From: Arcobacter acticola
Lineage (GTDB): Bacteria; Campylobacterota; Campylobacteria; Campylobacterales; Arcobacteraceae
NCBI RefSeq assembly: GCF_013177675.1
Contig: NZ_CP042652.1
Location: 1,798,001 to 1,862,000 of the forward strand
DNA: 64,000 nucleotides
Reading direction: 5' to 3'
Numbering within the stretch: position 1 is the first letter of the stretch; every line of letters starts with the position of its first letter. A program made the translations under genes and the position numbers. Shown here piece by piece: positions 10,229-22,778 of this stretch. The notes below the pieces were generated by a model. The model was not told where the DNA came from, did no database searches, and saw only the letters and a program-made list of their open reading frames with translations.

Positions 10229-11307
10229 CTATTTATATCTTTTTATTTCACCTGAATTTACTCTTGCAACAAAAGAGTTTAACTCTTTTTTAACAATTGG
10301 CATAAGATAGTATAATCCAATAATATTAAAAATAGACATTGAAAACATTGCTGCATCAGAGAAGTCAATAACAGCACCAAAGCTAATACTTGTACCAACA
10401 ATTACAAATAAACAAAAAATTCCTTTATAAACTAGTTCAGTTGTAGCACCCTCACCAAAAAGATAAGTCCATGCTTTTAGTCCGTAATATGACCATGACA
10501 CCATAGTTGAGAAAGCAAACATCACTACTGCTAGTGCTAAGAAATACTCAAAAATAAATGAAGTTTCTGTAAAAGCAGCAGCAGTTAATGTAACTCCACT
10601 TAAAGCACCTGTATTCATTCCTGAAATAATAATAACTAAAGCTGTCATCGTACAAATAACAACCGTATCAATAAATGGTTCAAGTAAAGAAACAAAACCT
10701 TCTGTTATGGGTTCTTTAGTTTTTACAGCTGAATGGGCAATGGCTGCTGATCCAACTCCTGCTTCATTTGAGAAAGTAGCTCTTTTTAATCCTTGAATTA
10801 ATGCTCCAATAAAACCACCAGCAACTCCAGCACCTGTAAATGCTCCAATAAATATTTGCTCAAAAGCAGCGCCTATTTGATCATAATGAGAAACTAATAC
10901 AATAACTGCCATTCCAACATATAAAGTAGCCATAAATGGAACTAGTTTTGAAGTTACTGATCCAATAGAAGGCATACCACCTATAATAACTCCTGCAAGA
11001 AGTATTGCAAAAATAATACCTGTAATCCATCCGTATCCAGGAGCTAATCCAAATGTTTGAACAATCATTGCATTGGCTTGATTACCTTGGAACATATTTC
11101 CAGCACCAAATGCTGCAAATATTGTCATAATTGCAAAACCAACTGCTAGTATTTTACCCGTTTTTGCATGACCTTTTTCTTTAAATGCTTTTGATAAATA
11201 ATACATTGGTCCACCTGATACTGTACCATCAGCATTTTCATTTCTATATTTTACACCTAAAGTACACTCAGTAAATTTTGATGCCATTCCAAATAAACCA
11301 CAAACTA
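10229..11307 (-). pseudogene. AGCS alanine/Na+ symporter, C-terminal fragment (split by IS)
   Basis: The downstream two thirds of an AGCS-family (DagA/AlsT type) sodium:alanine symporter. The frame reads VCGLFGMASKFTECTLGVKYR, VSGGPMYYL and several further hydrophobic helices, with TFSNEAGVGSAAIAHSA, the family's conserved transport motif. The first ATG inside the fragment is at 11287, so a truncated product would begin MASKFTEC. Removing the IS630 element at 11308-12450 and one TA copy joins this fragment in frame to the N-terminal fragment (12451-12885) as FWM-I-VCGLFGM, giving a 503-residue symporter. A product made from this half alone would lack the first helices and is unlikely to transport. 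Confidence 0.9.
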
Positions 11308-11361: not shown

Positions 11362-12420
11362 ATGGAAAAAATAAATAAATTAGAAAAAAATGATGCTAGA
11401 AAAGTAGATTCAAATACATTACAGTATCTCAGAGATAGAGCAATTAAATTAAGGGATAGTGGTATAAGTAATCTTGAAACAGCTGCAATATTAGGTTTGT
11501 CAAAAATTACAACATCAAGATGGTATAGCAAATATAAAAAAGATGGTCAAAAAGCACTTAAAGTTCAAAAAACTGGTCGTCCTAAAAAGTCTGGTAAGAG
11601 ACTTAGCGATGAACAAGAGGAAAAAATCATCCGAATGCTTATAGATACAACCCCAGAACAATTAAAGTTTAAGTTTGCTTTGTGGACAAGAGAAGCTGTA
11701 AAACAGTTAATTCTAAGAGTAGTAGATATTGATATGCCAATATCAACAGTTGGAGATTATCTTGCAAAATGGCAATTTACTTCGAAAAAACCAATAAAAA
11801 GAGCTTATGAAAGAAAAGATAGTGCAACTAAAGCTTGGTTGGAAGAAACATATCCAAAAATCAAAAAAGAAGCAAAAATAAATAATGCTGATATTTGGTG
11901 GGCTGATGAGACTGCTTGTGTATCAATGCCATCAAATTTAAAAGGATATGCTCCAATAGGAAGTAAAATAAAACCTATTCTTACTCATACAGCTAAAAAG
12001 TTTAAAGTGAATATGATATCAGCCATTACAAATACAGGTAAATCAATGTTTGCATTGTATGATGATTCAATAGCTACAGATAATTTTATAGATTTTTTAG
12101 AAAAAGTAATAAAATCAAATGATAAAAAAGTATTTATGATAGTAGATAACCTAAGAGTACATCATGCTAAATTAGTAAAAGCTTGGGAAGAAAAGCATAA
12201 AGATAAAATCAAACTCTTTTATCTTCCACCATACTCCCCAGAATTTAATCCTGATGAATATTTGAATCAAGATTATAAGAGTAATGTACATAAAAATGGT
12301 CTGCCAAAAAATCAAAAAGAACTAAAAGAAAACACACAAAATTATATGGAGAATTTACAAAAAAATCCACAAAAAATAGCTAACTTTTTTCAACATCAAA
12401 GTGTTAAATATGCTAGCTAA
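11362..12420 (+). CDS. IS630-family DDE transposase
   Basis: A 352-residue transposase. The N-terminal part is a homeodomain-like helix-turn-helix (LETAAILGLSKITTSRWYSKYKKDGQKAL) followed by a second winged segment (TVGDYLAKWQFTSKKPIKRAYERK). The catalytic core shows all three acidic residues: Asp in IWWADETACVS near residue 180, Asp in VFMIVDNLRVHHA near 258, and Glu in the YSPEFNPDEYLNQDYK motif near 292-300. No frameshift is visible. The -10-like TATAAT at 11351-11356 is very close to the ATG, so expression is probably weak or from a leaderless transcript. Confidence 0.93.
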   Translation: MEKINKLEKNDARKVDSNTLQYLRDRAIKLRDSGISNLETAAILGLSKITTSRWYSKYKKDGQKALKVQKTGRPKKSGKRLSDEQEEKIIRMLIDTTPEQLKFKFALWTREAVKQLILRVVDIDMPISTVGDYLAKWQFTSKKPIKRAYERKDSATKAWLEETYPKIKKEAKINNADIWWADETACVSMPSNLKGYAPIGSKIKPILTHTAKKFKVNMISAITNTGKSMFALYDDSIATDNFIDFLEKVIKSNDKKVFMIVDNLRVHHAKLVKAWEEKHKDKIKLFYLPPYSPEFNPDEYLNQDYKSNVHKNGLPKNQKELKENTQNYMENLQKNPQKIANFFQHQSVKYAS

Positions 12421-12423
12421 TGA

Positions 12424-12450
12424 AATTAGCTCTGTTTATTGGGGGAGTAA
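12424..12450 (-). repeat. IS630 element right terminal inverted repeat
   Basis: The complement begins TTACTCCCCCAATAAAC, matching the left end at 22 of 27 positions; the flanking TA at 12451-12452 is the second copy of the target. Confidence 0.85.
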
Positions 12451-12885
12451 TATCATCCAAAAAGTTGCTCCTGCTCCTCCAATAGATAAAGCCACACCAA
12501 CTCCAGCAATATTTCCAAGACCAACAGTTCCTGATAATGCAGTTGTAAGCGCTTGAAAGTGTGAAACTTCACCTGGCTCTTTTTTATCTGGATTTGAAAA
12601 CTTTCCACGAACAATATCAATTGCTAATCCAATTCTTCTAAATTGTACAAAACCAAAATAAAAAGTAAATACAATAGCTGCAACAAACAACCAAGCAACA
12701 ATTAATGGGAATGTTACTCCATCTTCTATTTTAATACCATAAAAAATCATATTCGCAAACCAAGCAAAGTAATTTGTAAAAAATTGATCTATTTTTTGAT
12801 CTATTCCAACAATCTCTTCTGCAAAACTAAAACTTGGGATACACAACATTGCTATGAAAAATAGCACCCTTTTAAATACATTCAT
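12436..12885 (-). pseudogene. AGCS alanine/Na+ symporter, N-terminal fragment (split by IS)
   Basis: The first 145 genuine residues of the symporter: a signal-like leader ([22 protein letters not shown]), a long first periplasmic stretch, then [23 protein letters not shown] and the family motif [35 protein letters not shown]. After codon 145 (ATA at 12453-12451) the frame enters the IS and adds only LLPQ before a stop. The remaining two thirds of the gene are on the far side of the element. AAAGGAAAATTT precedes the ATG, so the fragment can still be translated but should be non-functional. Confidence 0.9.
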
Positions 12886-15633: not shown

Positions 15634-15975
15634 TTATTCTAATTCCAAACTCATAAGATACATATCTTCACCATCTGTAACTTTTATATTTATACTTTGG
15701 CACTTTGGACATGAAAATTCATTTTTTTCTAAAGTTGAACTTGTATTACAATCAAAACACTCAATAACTACTTTTTGATGATTTATCAAAAAAACTGCAT
15801 CATGACAGACCGTTTGTTCTTTAAAGGTATCAAAAGCTGTTTGCAGTAAATCAGGTTCAACTCCACTTAAAACTCCAATTTTAACCACAACTTTTGTAAC
15901 TTTTTTTGCATCATTTGTTCGTGCGTGTTCTTCACAGCTTTCAAGAAGGGATTGAACTATTGAGTATTCATGCAT
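15634..15975 (-). CDS. hypA: Hydrogenase nickel incorporation protein HypA
   Basis: HypA delivers nickel to the NiFe-hydrogenase large subunit with HypB. The 113-residue protein begins with the nickel-binding MHE (MHEYSIVQSLLESCEEHA) and has the zinc site with two CxxC pairs (ECFDC near residue 73 and SCPKC near 91), all present. In Campylobacterota HypA often serves urease as well, but no urease genes are in view. Last gene of the minus-strand hyp series, 42 bp after hypE. Confidence 0.95.
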   Translation of the reverse strand: MHEYSIVQSLLESCEEHARTNDAKKVTKVVVKIGVLSGVEPDLLQTAFDTFKEQTVCHDAVFLINHQKVVIECFDCNTSSTLEKNEFSCPKCQSINIKVTDGEDMYLMSLELE

Positions 15976-16017
15976 AAACTACTCCTTTAAAAATATTATA
16001 CTTTTTAAAGAAAACCA

Positions 16018-17016
16018 TTAACAAATCCTTGGAAGAAGCTCACCTGTTGGTGTATCTAAAAATCTTTTTGTTCCCCATGAACTATTTAGTATTACTTTTT
16101 TATTATATTGTTGAGTAACTTTCCCAATAATACAAGCATTTGAAGCTTCAGGAAATCCATGTAAAACTTCAATTGCTTTTACTACATCATCTTTAGGAAT
16201 AGCTAAAACAAAAGTTCCCTCATTTGCAAGGTTTGTAGCTTCAAAACCTAACATCTCACAAATTCCCCTTACCTCATCACACAGAGGAATTTTTTCTTCA
16301 TCTACTTCTATACAAATATTTGATTGTTTTGCCCACTCATTTAAAACAGCACTCACTCCACCTCTTGTGGCATCTCTTAGAGCTGTAATTTTAATACCTG
16401 AGTCAATCAAAGCTTTAACTTGTGGATATAATGAATTACAATCACTTTTAAGATTTGAGTTCATATCCATACCCTCACGTGCAGCAAAAATAGTAGCACC
16501 ATGAGCTCCAATATCTCTATTTACTAAAATCAAATCATCTTCACTAATATTGTTTGAGCTAATACCTTTATATAAAATCTCTCCAATTCCAGTCGTATTT
16601 ATAAAGATTTTATCAACAGCACCTTTAGGAACTACCTTTGTATCTCCACTTACAACAATAGCATCATTTACTTCAAGCTCTTTTTTCATGGAAGCCACTA
16701 TTCTTTGTAGTTGCTCTACTTCAAACCCCTCTTCAATAATCACTGAACAAGTAAGATACTTAGGCTTTGCACCCATCATGGCTAAGTCATTACAAGTTCC
16801 ACAAATGGCAAGTTTCCCAATATCTGCTCCACTAAAGAATAAAGGACTAACTGTAAATGAATCTGTACTAAAAGCTAATTCCCCATTTTGAATAATTGCA
16901 GCGTCTTCACTTTTTTCTAAAATCTCATTTTTAAAAGCTTCATAAAAGACCTCTTTTATTAACTCATTGTTTTCAGCTCCACCATTTCCATGAGCTAGGG
17001 TTATTGTTTTGGTCAT
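16018..17016 (-). CDS. hypE: Hydrogenase expression/formation protein HypE
   Basis: HypE dehydrates the carbamoyl group placed on its C-terminal cysteine by HypF, producing the cyanide ligand of the NiFe site. The 332-residue protein has the PurM-like ATP-binding fold (ITLAHGNGGAENNELI at the N-terminus, VVSGDTKVVPKG, LRDATRGGVSAVLNEWAKQS) and ends with the functional tail PRIC, the last Cys being the modified residue. It ends directly after the MazG-like gene begins to its right (adjacent, 0 bp gap). Confidence 0.96.
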   Translation of the reverse strand: MTKTITLAHGNGGAENNELIKEVFYEAFKNEILEKSEDAAIIQNGELAFSTDSFTVSPLFFSGADIGKLAICGTCNDLAMMGAKPKYLTCSVIIEEGFEVEQLQRIVASMKKELEVNDAIVVSGDTKVVPKGAVDKIFINTTGIGEILYKGISSNNISEDDLILVNRDIGAHGATIFAAREGMDMNSNLKSDCNSLYPQVKALIDSGIKITALRDATRGGVSAVLNEWAKQSNICIEVDEEKIPLCDEVRGICEMLGFEATNLANEGTFVLAIPKDDVVKAIEVLHGFPEASNACIIGKVTQQYNKKVILNSSWGTKRFLDTPTGELLPRIC

Positions 17017-17373
17017 TTATTTATCTTCCCTACTCTTTGAATATTTCTTTTTCCCACCCTTTGATGTTTCAACTGGATATTTAGCTTCATTTTTTGTCAT
17101 CTTATTCATAATGGCATCTTCAAGGTTTATATCTAGTTTCATACAAAGTCTAAGAAGATAAATAGCAACATCAGCTACTTCTTCTTTTGTATGCTCTAAT
17201 ACATCATCAGGTAAGTTTTGTGATTCTTCAAAATTTAACCATTGAAATATTTCATTTAGTTCCCCTACTTCACCTGTTAATGCCATAACTAGATTTTTAG
17301 GATTATGAAAACTTTCCCAGTTTCTATCATCTGAGAATTTTTGTATTCTTTGTTCTATTCTTTCTATGTTCAT
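17017..17373 (-). CDS. MazG-like nucleotide pyrophosphohydrolase
   Basis: A 118-residue all-alpha NTP-PPase of the MazG/RS21-C6 type, which hydrolyses (d)NTPs to monophosphates. The metal site is visible as EVGELNEIFQW near residue 35 and EEVADVAIYLLRLC near 64, matching the ExxE...ExxD pattern. The C-terminus is basic (KGGKKKYSKSRE). It is wedged between hypE (no gap) and an NAD-dependent dehydrogenase (9 bp); its link with hydrogenase maturation, if any, is unknown. Confidence 0.85.
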   Translation of the reverse strand: MNIERIEQRIQKFSDDRNWESFHNPKNLVMALTGEVGELNEIFQWLNFEESQNLPDDVLEHTKEEVADVAIYLLRLCMKLDINLEDAIMNKMTKNEAKYPVETSKGGKKKYSKSREDK

Positions 17374-17382
17374 AAATAGCCT

Positions 17383-18246
17383 TTACTCATAAAATTTACA
17401 AATAGCCTGAGTTCCCAAATCTCCATCACCATTTTTTTCTAAAGTTTCATACATCTCTATAACATCTTGTAGTACTTTTAGATTTGCTACTTCTTCATTT
17501 GCTATTTTTAAATCTTTTACAATATGTTTTATATAAAAGCCTGGCTCAAAATCTCTTTTATTCATCTTAGGAGCATTATTTGTCATTTGCCAACTTGATG
17601 CTGCTCCATTACTAATACTTGCAAGCATTGTAGGTATATCTAATCCAACTTTATTTCCATAAGCAATAGCTTCACTAATACCTGCAATTATTCCAGCAAT
17701 TGCAACTTGATTTGCCATTTTTGTATGTTGTCCATTTCCTGATTTACCTTCATAGATAATTGTAGTACCCATGGCTTCAAAAACTTCTTTACAAGTATTA
17801 AAGTTATCTTCATCTCCTCCAACCATAATAGATAAAGTAGCATTTTTAGCTCCCACATCTCCACCTGAGACAGGGGCATCTAAAAATTTCAATCCTTTTT
17901 CTTTTGCCTTATTATAAATATCTATTGTTAGCTTTGGACTTGTAGTTGTCATATCTATTAAATAAGTGTTTTCATTTGCACTATTTAAAATACCTTTTTG
18001 AGATAAATATACTTCTTCTACATCTTTTGGATAACCTACAATTGTAATTACTACATCTTTATCTTTGGCACATGATTCTATAGTTTCACAAAATATTGCA
18101 CCTGCATTTAATATATCTTTGATTTTTTCTTTATTTCGTGCATATACTTCAACTTCAAATCCTTTTTTCATTAGATTTAAAATCATAAATTTTCCCATTA
18201 CACCTGCGCCTATAAAACCTATTTTTTTACCTATAATTTGACTCAT
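17383..18246 (-). CDS. 3-hydroxyisobutyrate dehydrogenase family NAD(P)-dependent reductase
   Basis: A 287-residue beta-hydroxyacid dehydrogenase. The N-terminal Rossmann motif is IGFIGAGVMGKFMILNLMKKG; the substrate-binding signature FLDAPVSGGDVGAKNATLSIMVGG and the catalytic Lys in GNGQHTKMANQVAIAGI are present. Family members reduce tartronate semialdehyde, succinic semialdehyde or 3-hydroxyisobutyrate; which one applies cannot be told. It interrupts the run of hyp genes on the same strand. Confidence 0.88.
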   Translation of the reverse strand: MSQIIGKKIGFIGAGVMGKFMILNLMKKGFEVEVYARNKEKIKDILNAGAIFCETIESCAKDKDVVITIVGYPKDVEEVYLSQKGILNSANENTYLIDMTTTSPKLTIDIYNKAKEKGLKFLDAPVSGGDVGAKNATLSIMVGGDEDNFNTCKEVFEAMGTTIIYEGKSGNGQHTKMANQVAIAGIIAGISEAIAYGNKVGLDIPTMLASISNGAASSWQMTNNAPKMNKRDFEPGFYIKHIVKDLKIANEEVANLKVLQDVIEMYETLEKNGDGDLGTQAICKFYE

Positions 18247-18273
18247 AATATTAAGACCTTTTTTTAAATTTAT

Positions 18274-18309
18274 AAAAAGTAAAGCAGTTTTCTTTCTTTA
18301 TAAAAGATT
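18274..18309 (-). repeat. Degenerate copy of the hypD 3' end and terminator
   Basis: Matches 18367-18403 (start AAAAAGTAAAGCAGTTT, end TATAAAAGATT) with a few differences. The second copy covers the last codons and terminator of hypD, so this one looks like a leftover of a local duplication. Confidence 0.6.
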
Positions 18310-18365
18310 CTCAGACATTTATGGTTTAAACTAAAGATTAAACATCATAAATCTCGTAATCTTTC

Positions 18366-18391
18366 AAAAAAGTAAAGCAGTTTACTTTTTT
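18366..18391 (-). terminator. Terminator after hypD
   Basis: Perfect 11-bp arms AAAAAAGTAAA and TTTACTTTTTT with loop GCAG, directly after the hypD stop codon; A/T runs on both sides allow termination in both directions. Confidence 0.8.
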
Positions 18392-19516
18392 TTATAAAAG
18401 ATTACCATATTTATAATAAGCACTACATGCACCTTCGCTACTAACCATACAAGAACCTATTGGATTTGTTGGAGTACAAAGTGTTCCAAAGATTTTACAA
18501 TCGTGTGGTTTTGCAACTCCTTTTAGAATATCTGGGCATCTGCAAGCTTTATTATCTTTTACTTCTTTTGTTGGTAATATTTCTTTATATGCTATTTTTG
18601 CATTATATTTATCATATTGCTCTTTTAGTTCATATCCACTATCTTCAACCTCTCCAATTCCTCTGAATTTAAAAGGAACTTTTTTGAAATATTTATTTAT
18701 TAACTCTTGAGCTTTTATATTTCCCTCATAAGAAACCAATCTTTTATACTCTATTTCTAAATCACTTCTTTTTTCAACAAACTGTTTTACTATCATATAA
18801 AGAGATTGCATCACGTCTACTGGTTCAAAGCCACTTACAACTACTGGTTTATTATAATCCCTTGGAAACTCTTCATATATCTTACTTCCACTAATAACAC
18901 TTACATGTGAAGGGCCTAAAAAAGCATCTATCTTACAATCACTACTTTGAACAAGTACACGCATAACTTCAGGAACTGTAATATGATTTATATGAAAAAG
19001 TATATTTGTAATATCTTGTTTTATTACTTGTTCTAATAAAGCACAAGTCATAGGAGTTGTTGTTTCAAATCCTATTGCAAAAAAGACTACTGTTTTATTT
19101 GGATTTTCACTTGCTATTTTTATACACTCCATTGGTGAGTAGACAAATCTTACATCAGCACCTTGGCTTCTTGCATTTTGTAAACTTCCACGACTACCTG
19201 GAACTTTTATCATATCGCCTAAAGTTACAAGTATTACATCTTCTTGTAAACTTAATTCATAAGCACTATCGATTCTCTCTTTTGGCATAACACAAACAGG
19301 ACAACCAGGTCCGTGTATAAAATTTATTTTTTTATTTATTAACTGTGGAATTCCATATTTCATAATAGTATGAGTGTGCCCACCACAAACTTCCATAATA
19401 TTTATAATTCCATCATAATCTTTTAAATCATCATCTATTATTTTCTTATATGCTTTTATTGTTTTAGCATCCCTAAAACCATCATATAAATCTTTTAGTT
19501 GTAGCTCTTTTTCCAT
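18392..19516 (-). CDS. hypD: Hydrogenase formation protein HypD
   Basis: HypD is the iron-sulfur scaffold that, with HypC, assembles the Fe(CN)2CO unit of the active site. The 374 residues include the conserved GPGCPVCVMP near 71, the catalytic-thiol region IMEVCGGHTHTIMKYG near 41, IGFETTTP near 152, and a C-terminal [4Fe-4S] cysteine set (KACRCPDILKG, CKIFGTLCTP, SCMVSSEGACSAYYKYG). It follows hypC after 13 bp. Confidence 0.96.
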   Translation of the reverse strand: MEKELQLKDLYDGFRDAKTIKAYKKIIDDDLKDYDGIINIMEVCGGHTHTIMKYGIPQLINKKINFIHGPGCPVCVMPKERIDSAYELSLQEDVILVTLGDMIKVPGSRGSLQNARSQGADVRFVYSPMECIKIASENPNKTVVFFAIGFETTTPMTCALLEQVIKQDITNILFHINHITVPEVMRVLVQSSDCKIDAFLGPSHVSVISGSKIYEEFPRDYNKPVVVSGFEPVDVMQSLYMIVKQFVEKRSDLEIEYKRLVSYEGNIKAQELINKYFKKVPFKFRGIGEVEDSGYELKEQYDKYNAKIAYKEILPTKEVKDNKACRCPDILKGVAKPHDCKIFGTLCTPTNPIGSCMVSSEGACSAYYKYGNLL

Positions 19517-19529
19517 GATATTTCAAAAC

Positions 19530-19811
19530 CTATCTATTTGGGCAATTATCAGATTGCTCAATTGCTTCTAATCTATCTTGCTCTTCCATCTTTTCTATTA
19601 TTTCTGCATAGACTTTGAGTGATTCTAGTGCATCCTCTTCATCTATTTTATTCATTGCAAATCCAATATGAATTAAAACATAATCACCAATTACAACATC
19701 TTGGTCTATTAAATCTAAACTTGCACTTCTTTCAACACCCATTGTGTCAACTACACAAGTGTTCATTTCAGTGTCTATACTTTTTATTTTTGATGGTATT
19801 GATAAGCACAT
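19530..19811 (-). CDS. hypC: Hydrogenase assembly chaperone HypC
   Basis: HypC (93 residues) starts with the essential MCLSIP, in which Cys2 binds the iron-ligand complex and the hydrogenase precursor. The OB-fold continues with ERSASLDLIDQDVVIGDYVLIHIGFAMNKIDEEDALESL, all conserved. The tail (RLEAIEQSDNCPNR) is a little longer than usual. AAAAAGG precedes the ATG. A 130-bp structured spacer separates it from hypB. Confidence 0.95.
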   Translation of the reverse strand: MCLSIPSKIKSIDTEMNTCVVDTMGVERSASLDLIDQDVVIGDYVLIHIGFAMNKIDEEDALESLKVYAEIIEKMEEQDRLEAIEQSDNCPNR

Positions 19812-19941: not shown

Positions 19942-20760
19942 TCATCTCATCTTTCTTTTGAAATTAATCCAATCAATTACATTTTGAAGTGATTGTTTAT
20001 CTTTGATATTCACTTCTAATATATCCACATTTGGTTTTAGTTTTCTAGCTTCTTCTTTTTCTTTTTGTATATCATATTCAAAATAAGGAAGTAAATCTGT
20101 TTTTGTAATAAGTATTAAATCAGCAGCTCTAAACATAACAGGATATTTAACTATCTTATCCTCACCCTCAGGAACTGAAACTAAAACAATATTTAAGTGA
20201 GTTCCCACATCATAAGAAGCAGGACATACAAGATTTCCTACATTTTCCACAAAACAAACATCTATATCATCTAAAGCGATATCATGTAAACCTTTGTGAA
20301 CCATAAAGGCATCAAGATGACAAGCACTTCCTGTTTGAATTTGAACAGCTTCAATTCCCTTTGCTTTTAATCTATCGGCATCCCTTGAAGTTTCTAAGTC
20401 ACCCTCAACAACTGCAAATTTGAAATCAACTATATCTGCAATATTTTCCAAAAGTGTAGTTTTACCACTTCCAGGACTACTCATAAGATTTATTCCTAAA
20501 ACTTTGTGTGAGTCAAAATGAGTTCTATTATGTGAAGCTTCATGGTCATTTTTATCTAAAATCTTTTTAATTACAGAGATTGTTTTAGCATCGTTTAATT
20601 GGGGATTGTGATTTAGTGTTTCATGGGCTGCTTGATGAGTATTACTAAAAGCCAAATTATCATGTGGATGGTCATGATCATGAACAAGTCCATGCTCATG
20701 AATGTCGTGATGGTGGTGATGTTCTTGACCTGCTATTGTACAACCGCAATCTTTACACAT
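19942..20760 (-). CDS. hypB: Hydrogenase nickel incorporation GTPase HypB
   Basis: HypB is the GTPase that, with HypA, inserts nickel. The 272 residues start with the nickel-binding motif CxxCGC (MCKDCGC), then a long His/Asp-rich segment (residues 13-50, EHHHHHDIHEHG and others) that could store nickel. The GTPase domain follows: Walker A SSPGSGKTTLL near residue 94, VVEGDLETSRDADR, the metal-site Cys/His region GSACHLDAFM, switch II VENVGNLVCPASYDVG and the base-recognition TKTD. AAAGGATAATAAT precedes the ATG. It has a promoter and a hairpin leader of its own. Confidence 0.96.
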   Translation of the reverse strand: MCKDCGCTIAGQEHHHHHDIHEHGLVHDHDHPHDNLAFSNTHQAAHETLNHNPQLNDAKTISVIKKILDKNDHEASHNRTHFDSHKVLGINLMSSPGSGKTTLLENIADIVDFKFAVVEGDLETSRDADRLKAKGIEAVQIQTGSACHLDAFMVHKGLHDIALDDIDVCFVENVGNLVCPASYDVGTHLNIVLVSVPEGEDKIVKYPVMFRAADLILITKTDLLPYFEYDIQKEKEEARKLKPNVDILEVNIKDKQSLQNVIDWINFKRKMR

Positions 20761-20770
20761 ATTATTATCC

Positions 20771-20827
20771 TTTTGAGTTAAACTATTTTTCTGAATAATT
20801 ATTCATTTTAAATAGTTTAACTCAAAA
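20771..20827 (-). promoter_or_regulatory. Hairpin in the hypB 5' leader
   Basis: Perfect 18-bp inverted repeat: 20771-20788 pairs with 20810-20827, with a 21-base spacer that itself holds the 14-bp palindrome TGAATAATTATTCA (20792-20805). The predicted hypB transcript begins near 20832, so nearly the whole leader would fold into this hairpin, which ends where the AAAGGA ribosome-binding site begins. It may control translation or stability or be an operator; there is no U-run, so it is not a typical terminator. Confidence 0.65.
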
Positions 20828-20838
20828 AGTCTAAATAT

Positions 20839-20877
20839 AGTATAATTTTTATTTACACTTAGGTATTTTTAGAACAA
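20839..20877 (-). promoter_or_regulatory. hypB promoter with a 20-bp element shared with nicO
   Basis: On the minus strand: TTGTTCTAAAAATACCTAAG (20877-20858), 13 bases, then TATACT (20844-20839). The same element, one mismatch apart and at the same 13-base distance, lies before the nickel permease gene. It replaces a recognisable -35 box, so an activator site is likely. Confidence 0.65.
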
Positions 20878-20888
20878 GTTTTATTTTT

Positions 20889-21281
20889 TTATTTAAAAGA
20901 AATAGATGTCTCTTTTAAGATTGCATTTACATCTGTTGAGTCACCATTATATTTAACTAATTTTATACCTTGTGAAGTAAATGAATTAGCTGTATTCTTA
21001 CAAGCTTTTCTAACAACCACATAACTACACTCAACTAAAGCTTCACCCATTTTATTATGTTGAGCAATATGTTGGGCATCATCATGTTTATGATTACACT
21101 CATGATCTTCTTCGGCATGGTCATGATCTATATCTGTTCTTGGATTTGTAATTACTGAATCTAATTTAAATGATCTAAACATTCCGGAACCTGTCAAATC
21201 ATAAATTGCAAACTTTGGAGTATGTCCTGCATTACTAAAGAATGTTAAATTCTCATCTTTTACTGGAATTGCTATTTTCAT
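20889..21281 (-). CDS. NifX/NifB-C-terminal-like protein with a His-rich loop
   Basis: A 130-residue protein of the dinitrogenase iron-molybdenum cofactor biosynthesis domain type: MKIAIPVKDENLTFFSNAGHTPKFAIYDL at the start and the core ALVECSYVVVRKACKNTANSFTSQGIKLVKY. No nitrogenase genes are present. In the middle (about residues 52-73) is an inserted stretch rich in His and Asp/Glu (DHDHAEEDHECNHKHDD), the kind of sequence that binds nickel. Its position between the nickel permease and hypB suggests nickel or cofactor handling for hydrogenase. That role is inferred. Confidence 0.8.
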   Translation of the reverse strand: MKIAIPVKDENLTFFSNAGHTPKFAIYDLTGSGMFRSFKLDSVITNPRTDIDHDHAEEDHECNHKHDDAQHIAQHNKMGEALVECSYVVVRKACKNTANSFTSQGIKLVKYNGDSTDVNAILKETSISFK

Positions 21282-21368
21282 TGTATGCCTTTTATTACTT
21301 TATTGTAGAGTATACTCTCTTAAGTGCTTTTATATGCAATTATTACTCCTTTGACTTTTAAATTAACC

Positions 21369-22010
21369 CTAAGCTAATAAAAAGTTAGTACCAACAACTA
21401 AAGAAACAAGGCCTGCAACAGTAAATATTCTTTTAATATTTTGTTGAGAATTTAATAAATTTTTATTTATATATAAAATAAATGCCCCAAAAGCTAAAAA
21501 GACAATCATAACACCCAAAGTAAAAGCTAAAACCATAGTAAAATCAACACTAGCACTTTCAACCAGTCCTAGAGTAACTAACATTCCTCTAACTCCGCCT
21601 ATTCCCATAAGAGTTCCTATTGCAAAGGCTGAACTTACATCTTTATTTGTATGAGAATGTTCTTTGCCAAAATAAATATGAATATGCTCTTTACCATCGT
21701 GGATATGCTTACTTAGGTTTATTCTATTTGTAAATACTAACCATAATAAATAAATTCCCATTCCTAAAATCACAGAAGCAGAAATAACATCTCCATAAGC
21801 TAGTATCTCATCTGATATTTTATATGTTTCAAGTATTTTTGCAAAAATAAAAAGTGATATTCCATGGCCTACTGCAAACATACTTGTAATAAGTATTGTT
21901 TTTCTTTTATTTTTTCCTATTGAAAAATCTGCAATTGCAGTTAAATGATCAGCTCCAAAAGCATGTAAAATTCCATACCAAAAGATTAGAGATAAAGCTA
22001 CATGTTCCAT
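21369..22010 (-). CDS. NicO/NiCoT-type nickel permease
   Basis: An integral membrane protein of 213 residues with about six helices. The first helix carries the nickel/cobalt transporter signature HX4DH (HAFGADHLTAIADF), and the second VGHGISLFIFA. A His-rich cytoplasmic loop (HIHDGKEHIHIYFGKEHSH) lies between helices 3 and 4. These features and the neighbouring hypB support nickel import for hydrogenase. Cobalt cannot be excluded. AAGGAAAAAC precedes the ATG; it is first in the minus-strand series nicO - NifX-like - hypB. Confidence 0.88.
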   Translation of the reverse strand: MEHVALSLIFWYGILHAFGADHLTAIADFSIGKNKRKTILITSMFAVGHGISLFIFAKILETYKISDEILAYGDVISASVILGMGIYLLWLVFTNRINLSKHIHDGKEHIHIYFGKEHSHTNKDVSSAFAIGTLMGIGGVRGMLVTLGLVESASVDFTMVLAFTLGVMIVFLAFGAFILYINKNLLNSQQNIKRIFTVAGLVSLVVGTNFLLA

Positions 22011-22068
22011 GTTTTTCCTTACGAGTAGTTCTTAGATTATTGTAGTATATTTTTATATTTATAAACTT

Positions 22069-22107
22069 ATCATAATTTTATAAAACTCTTATGTATTTTT
22101 AGAACAA
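22069..22107 (-). promoter_or_regulatory. nicO promoter with the element shared with hypB
   Basis: TTGTTCTAAAAATACATAAG (22107-22088), 13 bases, then TATGAT (22074-22069). It differs from the hypB element at one of 20 positions. It lies between divergent genes and ends 14 bp before the start of the transposase-like gene, so it could control both. Confidence 0.65.
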
Positions 22108-22121
22108 AAAATATACAAAAG

Positions 22122-22778
22122 ATGCTAATATATGAAATGAAATGTCAAAACTGCAATAACACAAACTTTTATATTCTAGCAAATGATTATATAAAATGTA
22201 AAAAATGTGCAAAAAAATATTCCCTAAAAAAAATAGAAAAAGACAAGCAAGTAGCAATAAGTTTTTCTCAAAATAAAAATGCCCTTGAAACCTCTAAAGA
22301 ACTACAATTAAATTATAAAACAGTAAAAGATAGATTTGATATTTATAGAAAAGAAATAGCTATATATTTAGAAAACCAATATAATAACTCAGTAAAAGAC
22401 AATACAGAATATGAAGAGTTTTATTATATAAAAGAACGTGAAAAAAAGAAAAAGAAAAAATCTTTAAGCCAAGCCATAAATATAATGGGATTTTATTCAA
22501 ATGAAAAGATATATACTATTCTTATGCCAAAAATTGGTAAAAGAGCTTTTGATATAGAAGATGGTTTTATAGAGTATTTAAATTGGCATAAAATCCACTC
22601 AAAAAATTCTTATCAATCAAAACTTAATGAATTTTGGAAATTTTTAGAAGAAAATCTAAAGAAATATAAAGGTGTAGAAGAAGAAAATTTTTTCTTTTAT
22701 TTAAAAGAGTGCGAATTTAGATTTAACTATTCACAAAAAGAGCAATTAGAGATTATCGAAAATTTATACAAAATATAA
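22122..22778 (+). CDS. Zinc-ribbon/HTH protein resembling a domesticated IS1595-type transposase
   Basis: A 218-residue protein. The N-terminus is a zinc ribbon (KCQNCNN ... KCKKCAKKYS), followed by an HTH (KNALETSKELQLNYKTVKDRFDIY), the order found in IS1595/ISXO2 transposases. The C-terminal half keeps that family's pattern (IHSKN, then NEFWKFLEENLKKYKGV and YLKECEFRFNY), but the DDE acidic positions are not evident (EYEEFYYIKE where DExYIG is expected). No inverted repeats or target duplication surround it. I infer a transposase-derived DNA-binding protein, possibly the regulator of the adjacent nickel genes. Met6 (22137) is an alternative start. Confidence 0.6.
   Translation: MLIYEMKCQNCNNTNFYILANDYIKCKKCAKKYSLKKIEKDKQVAISFSQNKNALETSKELQLNYKTVKDRFDIYRKEIAIYLENQYNNSVKDNTEYEEFYYIKEREKKKKKKSLSQAINIMGFYSNEKIYTILMPKIGKRAFDIEDGFIEYLNWHKIHSKNSYQSKLNEFWKFLEENLKKYKGVEEENFFFYLKECEFRFNYSQKEQLEIIENLYKI

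Follow-up and report, generated by a model that had tools for sequence, protein, structure and literature searches.

A conserved 20-bp operator-like element and a transposase-derived candidate regulator at nickel and hydrogenase maturation genes of Arcobacter acticola and its relatives

The hypB-nicO locus and its 20-bp element

We analyzed a stretch of 64,000 nucleotides from the genome of Arcobacter acticola (hereafter, the window). On its minus strand, the window carries a nicO-like gene, a gene for a small His-rich protein and hypB, followed by the rest of a putative hypB operon that comprises hypC, hypD, a 3-hydroxyisobutyrate-dehydrogenase-like gene, a MazG-like gene, hypE and hypA (Table 1). 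An open reading frame divergent from nicO encodes the protein that we propose as a candidate regulator; translation may instead begin at a second ATG (position 22137).

Table 1. Features of the hypB-nicO locus, in window coordinates
Feature	Position	Strand	Sequence or basis
Rest of putative hypB operon	15634..19811	-	Synteny in relatives; names by sight and homology
hypB (GTPase, nickel insertion)	19942..20760	-	TIGR00073, E 3e-83
Inverted repeat, hairpin-like, in the hypB 5' leader	20770..20829	-	About -26 kcal/mol predicted; close relatives only
-10-like hexamer TATACT, 13 bases downstream of the hypB element	20839..20844	-	Sequence
20-bp element (putative operator), upstream of hypB	20858..20877	-	TTGTTCTAAAAATACCTAAG
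NifX/NafY-like His-rich protein, 130 aa, between nicO and hypB	20889..21281	-	PF02579, E 2e-4, below cut-off
nicO-like nickel transporter	21369..22010	-	NicO Pfam, E 5e-4, below curated cut-off
-10-like hexamer TATGAT, 13 bases downstream of the nicO element	22069..22074	-	Sequence
20-bp element (putative operator), between nicO and the divergent transposase-derived gene	22088..22107	-	TTGTTCTAAAAATACATAAG
Candidate regulator, 218 aa, IS1595-transposase-derived (Zn ribbon, HTH, degenerate DDE)	22122..22778	+	Divergent from nicO

The first-pass annotation of this DNA had reported that hypB and nicO are preceded by copies of one 20-bp element that differ at a single position, and that each copy stands at the same distance from a -10-like hexamer. 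Both copies lie on the minus strand exactly where it had placed them, and the gap of 13 bases to TATACT or TATGAT was found at both promoters. As it had also stated, the window holds no third copy, even when up to three mismatches are allowed. The consensus pattern common to both copies is TTGTTCTAAAAATACMTAAG, and the element does not look like an evident palindrome. With up to three mismatches, 0.16 matches to this pattern are expected in the shuffled window, and two matches were reached in 1 of 100 shuffles, the pattern being derived from the same data.

When the whole genome (3.02 Mb) was scanned, the next best match had two mismatches and lay within an RND-type efflux gene, and matches with three mismatches were about as frequent as those of the reversed pattern. 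Thus, the genome carries two real copies of the element, and these are the only convincing ones. A candidate third copy at position 844984 is inside a coding gene and was attributed to chance. Further, the hydA promoter of this genome (L018) has lost the element, and the regulon of A. acticola therefore seems to be limited to the nicO and hypB operons.

Several other features of this genome were recorded. The inverted repeat in the hypB leader is predicted to form a strong hairpin with a TGAATAATTATTCA loop and is present in the close relatives L026, L027, L058, L060, L064 and L066; the remaining relatives keep just its 5' arm (GGGTTAAACT). Palindromes such as TGAATAATTATTCA occur near hydA as well as in the hypB leader. 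A TetR-type gene (L018:13412-about 14000, minus strand) and its homologs overlap hupS, and its start is apparently non-ATG in this genome. The hupL-like large subunit (L018:11169-12524, minus strand) stops right after the CxxCxxH motif, like H2-sensing hydrogenases, and is a possible sensor. In the window, a gene recognized by sight as an IS630-like transposase gene (11362-12420, plus strand) lies between 10229-11287 and 12436-12885 (minus strand) and seems to break a sodium:alanine symporter-type gene into two.

Conservation of the element across relatives

The pattern matched 84 times in 100 relatives with up to two mismatches, compared with 9 times for the reversed control pattern. Most matches were situated before hypB, nikKMLQO, nicO or the gene of a nickel-type binding protein, or in reversed orientation between hupL and hydA. 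Forward copies stand approximately 90-120 bp ahead of hypB; others precede nikKM, nicO, the gene of a family-5 (NikA-type) binding protein and a second DUF4198 gene. The nikKM operons of these relatives encode a DUF4198 NikK-like protein, CbiM/NikM, a NikL-family protein, CbiQ and an ATPase. In a further group the element is reversed and lies between the 3' end of hupL and hydA. Porin and SBP genes, at the lower end of the regulon, are supported by one or two genomes.

Across 45 forward promoters, we also examined how far the element stands from the -10 sequence. A good -10 match was most common at +33 from the first base of the element (42% of the promoters), whereas the other offsets between 28 and 39 gave a match in 0-16%. 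The spacing is thus likewise conserved, because the offset found in the window is the one that is enriched across relatives. Since the matches exceed the control, stand before nickel or hydrogenase genes and keep their offset from the -10 sequence, these comparisons support the view that the element is an operator-like mark of a nickel/hydrogenase regulon. The annotation had suggested a shared regulator for nickel uptake and nickel insertion, and the gene context in relatives supports this suggestion: copies scattered at random away from promoters were not seen, nor was loss of the element in relatives with the same gene order. The presence of the element at nicO, nikKMLQO, hypB and hydA in relatives covers both the nickel uptake and the hydrogenase targets of a NikR regulon.

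At the hupL-hydA junction of six loci (L036, L039, L049, L059, L063 and L069), a conserved TTGTTAC...TACACT block containing TGTTACW is found besides the reversed element. TGTTACW resembles the HP1021/CemR box; the CemR paper mentions no hydA site. Further, in one relative (L044/L185, genome G029), a type I restriction-modification gene directly follows the element and the hyp operon lies approximately 9 kb beyond, as if an insertion had parted the operator from hypB.

A transposase-derived protein associated with the element

A homolog of the protein encoded at 22122-22778 was present in all 11 hyp clusters that were first inspected by annotating neighborhoods of 20 kb. Among 100 genomes (that of the window and 99 relatives), 57 possess both hypB and the protein, 20 hypB only, 2 the protein only and 21 neither (p 2e-8). 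In 55 of the 57 genomes with both, the two genes are at most 12 kb apart on one contig. Second copies of the protein occur in four genomes, and all four are divergent from nikKMLQO with the element in between.

The protein is associated with the element as well. With a site matrix built from Arcobacteraceae sites, we detected the element in 73 of 110 homologs, at most 100 bp ahead of the start of the protein and pointing away from it. None of 29 IS1595 transposases at unlinked loci had it, and it turned up in 0.2% of shuffled upstream sequences; for about a third of the homologs this Arcobacteraceae matrix recognized no upstream site. The element also accompanies the protein in Sulfurimonas, Sulfurospirillum, Sulfuricurvum, Sulfurovum and Nitratiruptor, where variants of it occur, for example TAGTCCCAAAAATATATAAG. 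Of 58 loci with the protein, 40 carry a site upstream of hypB (some of these loci belong to the genomes from which the matrix was built). The four Arcobacteraceae genomes with the protein that give no strict match have variant sites of 10-21 bits (L146, L149, L158 and L161). In the 19 genomes that possess hypB without the protein, including four Arcobacteraceae, no site of at least 12 bits was found up to 3 kb upstream of hypB. Thus, as expected of a transcription factor, a conserved site stands before the protein's own gene and its targets and is lost together with the protein. Base 5 of the operator tended to be T in homologs with K or R after the conserved Tyr of the recognition helix (18 of 22, versus 10 of 36 others); this covariation is confounded by phylogeny and was therefore not used.

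The protein family is characterized by an invariant CxxC...CxxC ribbon, by an HTH and by a C-terminal LKExEFxFN block. The NCBIfam IS1595 model NF033547 matches 32 of 35 members, the window protein falling below its curated cut-off, and the Pfam ribbon and DDE models PF12760 and PF12762 match some members. Pfam alone gave nothing useful for the window protein, so that an alignment and NCBIfam were required, and a PDB sequence search with the same protein returned unrelated weak matches only. When the family was aligned by hhalign with 27 true IS1595 transposases, the two profiles matched over their whole length (99.9%, E 1.1e-36). When examined for an RNase H-like DDE fold, an AlphaFold model of the protein (pLDDT 85) gave weak PDB structure matches over residues 84-199, the best with a Z of 5.6 to the ISCth4 transposase and others with a Z of 4-5 to retroviral integrases, and matched LuxR/RcsB-type HTH domains over residues 33-88; Foldseek returned no match below E 0.001 for this model.

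The family shares its domain order and end-to-end profile similarity with IS1595 (ISXO2-like) transposases but differs from them in having lost catalytic residues, in being single copy and fixed beside hyp or nik genes, and in being under purifying selection (dN/dS 0.03-0.10). Of 43 members, 42 have lost the third catalytic residue (E) and 23 have a replacement of the first (D), whereas the 27 true transposases have intact catalytic residues, save one D2. That the gene is single copy and fixed in place speaks against its mobility, and the family forms one clade against the true transposases (support 96/90). By these comparisons, the protein is a domesticated, catalytically dead IS1595-family transposase of single origin.

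In true IS1595 elements, the terminal repeat starts approximately 40-70 bp upstream of the transposase start, which is roughly the place of the operator here. This position is suggestive of descent of the operator from the left terminal repeat, but the true repeats (GGGTCTTG..., GGGGCTGTAG...) do not match the operator matrix, and the sole ends in common (GTC...TAAG) run in opposite directions. We therefore do not claim such descent. Distant relatives of the protein that lack the zinc ribbon lie beside TonB-dependent receptor genes (L180:983-1618, minus strand; L183:5519-6070, plus strand). These are perhaps further transposase-derived regulators, and they hint at other uses of the family.

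A possible counterpart of NikR

Nickel import is under the control of NikR, as is hydABC in Helicobacter pylori (PMC6682613). We found no NikR (PF08753, NikR_C) in any of 61 Arcobacteraceae genomes, including that of the window, whereas control genomes do match, and NikR was therefore rejected as the regulator. The element is also unlike typical NikR inverted repeats. NikR is present in eight genomes of other families, one of which also has the candidate protein, and among hypB genomes the two proteins avoid each other (p 0.001). NikR fills the physiological slot that we propose for the candidate regulator, although NikR is a ribbon-helix-helix/ACT protein and the candidate is a Zn ribbon-HTH-DDE relic. 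The protein would play a NikR-like role and yet belongs neither to NikR nor to the active IS1595 transposases.

We consider that the element acts as operator for a nickel/[NiFe]-hydrogenase regulon and, with a probability of roughly 0.8, that it is bound by the product of 22122-22778. The protein, which has kept the zinc ribbon and the HTH of its transposase ancestor, would bind the element through this HTH. At the nicO and hypB (or nikK) promoter the element would cover approximately -45 to -26, and the gene of the protein itself has the element at its promoter, too; occupancy of the element would control the access of RNA polymerase, by blocking or recruiting it, and would provide autoregulation. 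From the genomic comparisons we infer direct binding, repression rather than activation, and nickel as the signal. The protein would most likely be an autoregulated repressor in the role of NikR, with nickel uptake and Hyp maturation held down when nickel is plentiful. We favor a repressor that would release nickel uptake and Hyp synthesis at nickel shortage, given that nickel importers are what the paralogs guard and that NikR is lacking. For repression by nickel specifically, the odds are about even.

A site at -45 to -26 fits activation equally well, since a class II activator could bind there. The same operator and protein may, with a chance of about one third, form an activating system that answers H2, redox or low oxygen and not nickel, and that recruits polymerase from -35. 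What the regulon comprises (nickel import and Hyp maturation, and also hydA in relatives) is all required for H2 oxidation, which would suit such a signal, but the paralogs guard nikKMLQO alone, the neighboring genes (nikK, nicO, SBP and HupE-type) indicate nickel rather than H2, and the element is reversed at hydA.

It is unlikely that the transposase-derived protein is a mere neighbor and that another regulator reads the element. The TetR-type gene before hupSL overlaps hupS in several relatives, and a CemR/HP1021-type response regulator could be envisaged from the conserved TGTTACW at the hupL-hydA junction and its similarity to the HP1021/CemR box. We rejected the TetR-type gene, since it occurs only with hupSL and never beside nik or hyp promoters; further, under another regulator both the absence of the element in genomes with hypB but without the protein and the paralogs at nikKMLQO would stay unexplained.

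Very improbable is a promoter element of an alternative sigma factor, although its spacing to the -10-like hexamer is fixed and A. butzleri possesses seven ECF sigma factors (PMC2147049). We rejected this explanation because the element is reversed at hydA and the -10 sequence, 13 bases past the 20-bp element, is of the ordinary sigma-70 type; in several families, moreover, the element lies beside one and the same protein. Chance similarity or a recent duplication of a promoter segment, which might be thought of because this genome has two copies only, is refuted by the 84 versus 9 matches in relatives across families and by the absence of the element in genomes with hypB but without the protein, and the flanks of the two copies differ.

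Dedicated regulators beside nickel import genes have a parallel in NimR, a MerR-type protein that controls nik genes in Haemophilus and belongs to another protein family. TldR proteins are TnpB-derived, RNA-guided regulators; they too are transposon proteins turned regulators, but their family differs and no guide RNA is implied here. InsA of IS1, a transposase part that binds next to its own promoter, resembles the candidate in this respect and differs in protein family.

We regard the protein family as a putative new transcription-factor family that arose by exaptation. Tentatively, an IS1595 DDE transposase may have been domesticated once, early in Campylobacterota, into a nickel sensor-regulator of import and hydrogenase maturation that replaced NikR and perhaps senses metal via its zinc ribbon or a remodeled catalytic pocket; we regard this full history as possible and somewhat doubtful. 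In the open literature on IS1595 with hydrogenase, transposase-derived bacterial regulators and Sulfurospirillum hypB with transposase, we found no earlier description of the protein or the element. Little is known of regulation in Arcobacter (PMC6682613), and the A. butzleri genome paper reported no obvious nickel uptake system (PMC2147049). If true, this would be a rare bacterial DDE transposase turned ordinary transcription factor, of which we found no other case in the open literature. Such genes are likely to be annotated plainly as "transposase" and so overlooked. For the H2-oxidizing Campylobacterota, the finding puts forward a concrete operator, a regulator candidate that forms one clade, and the genes that they would target.
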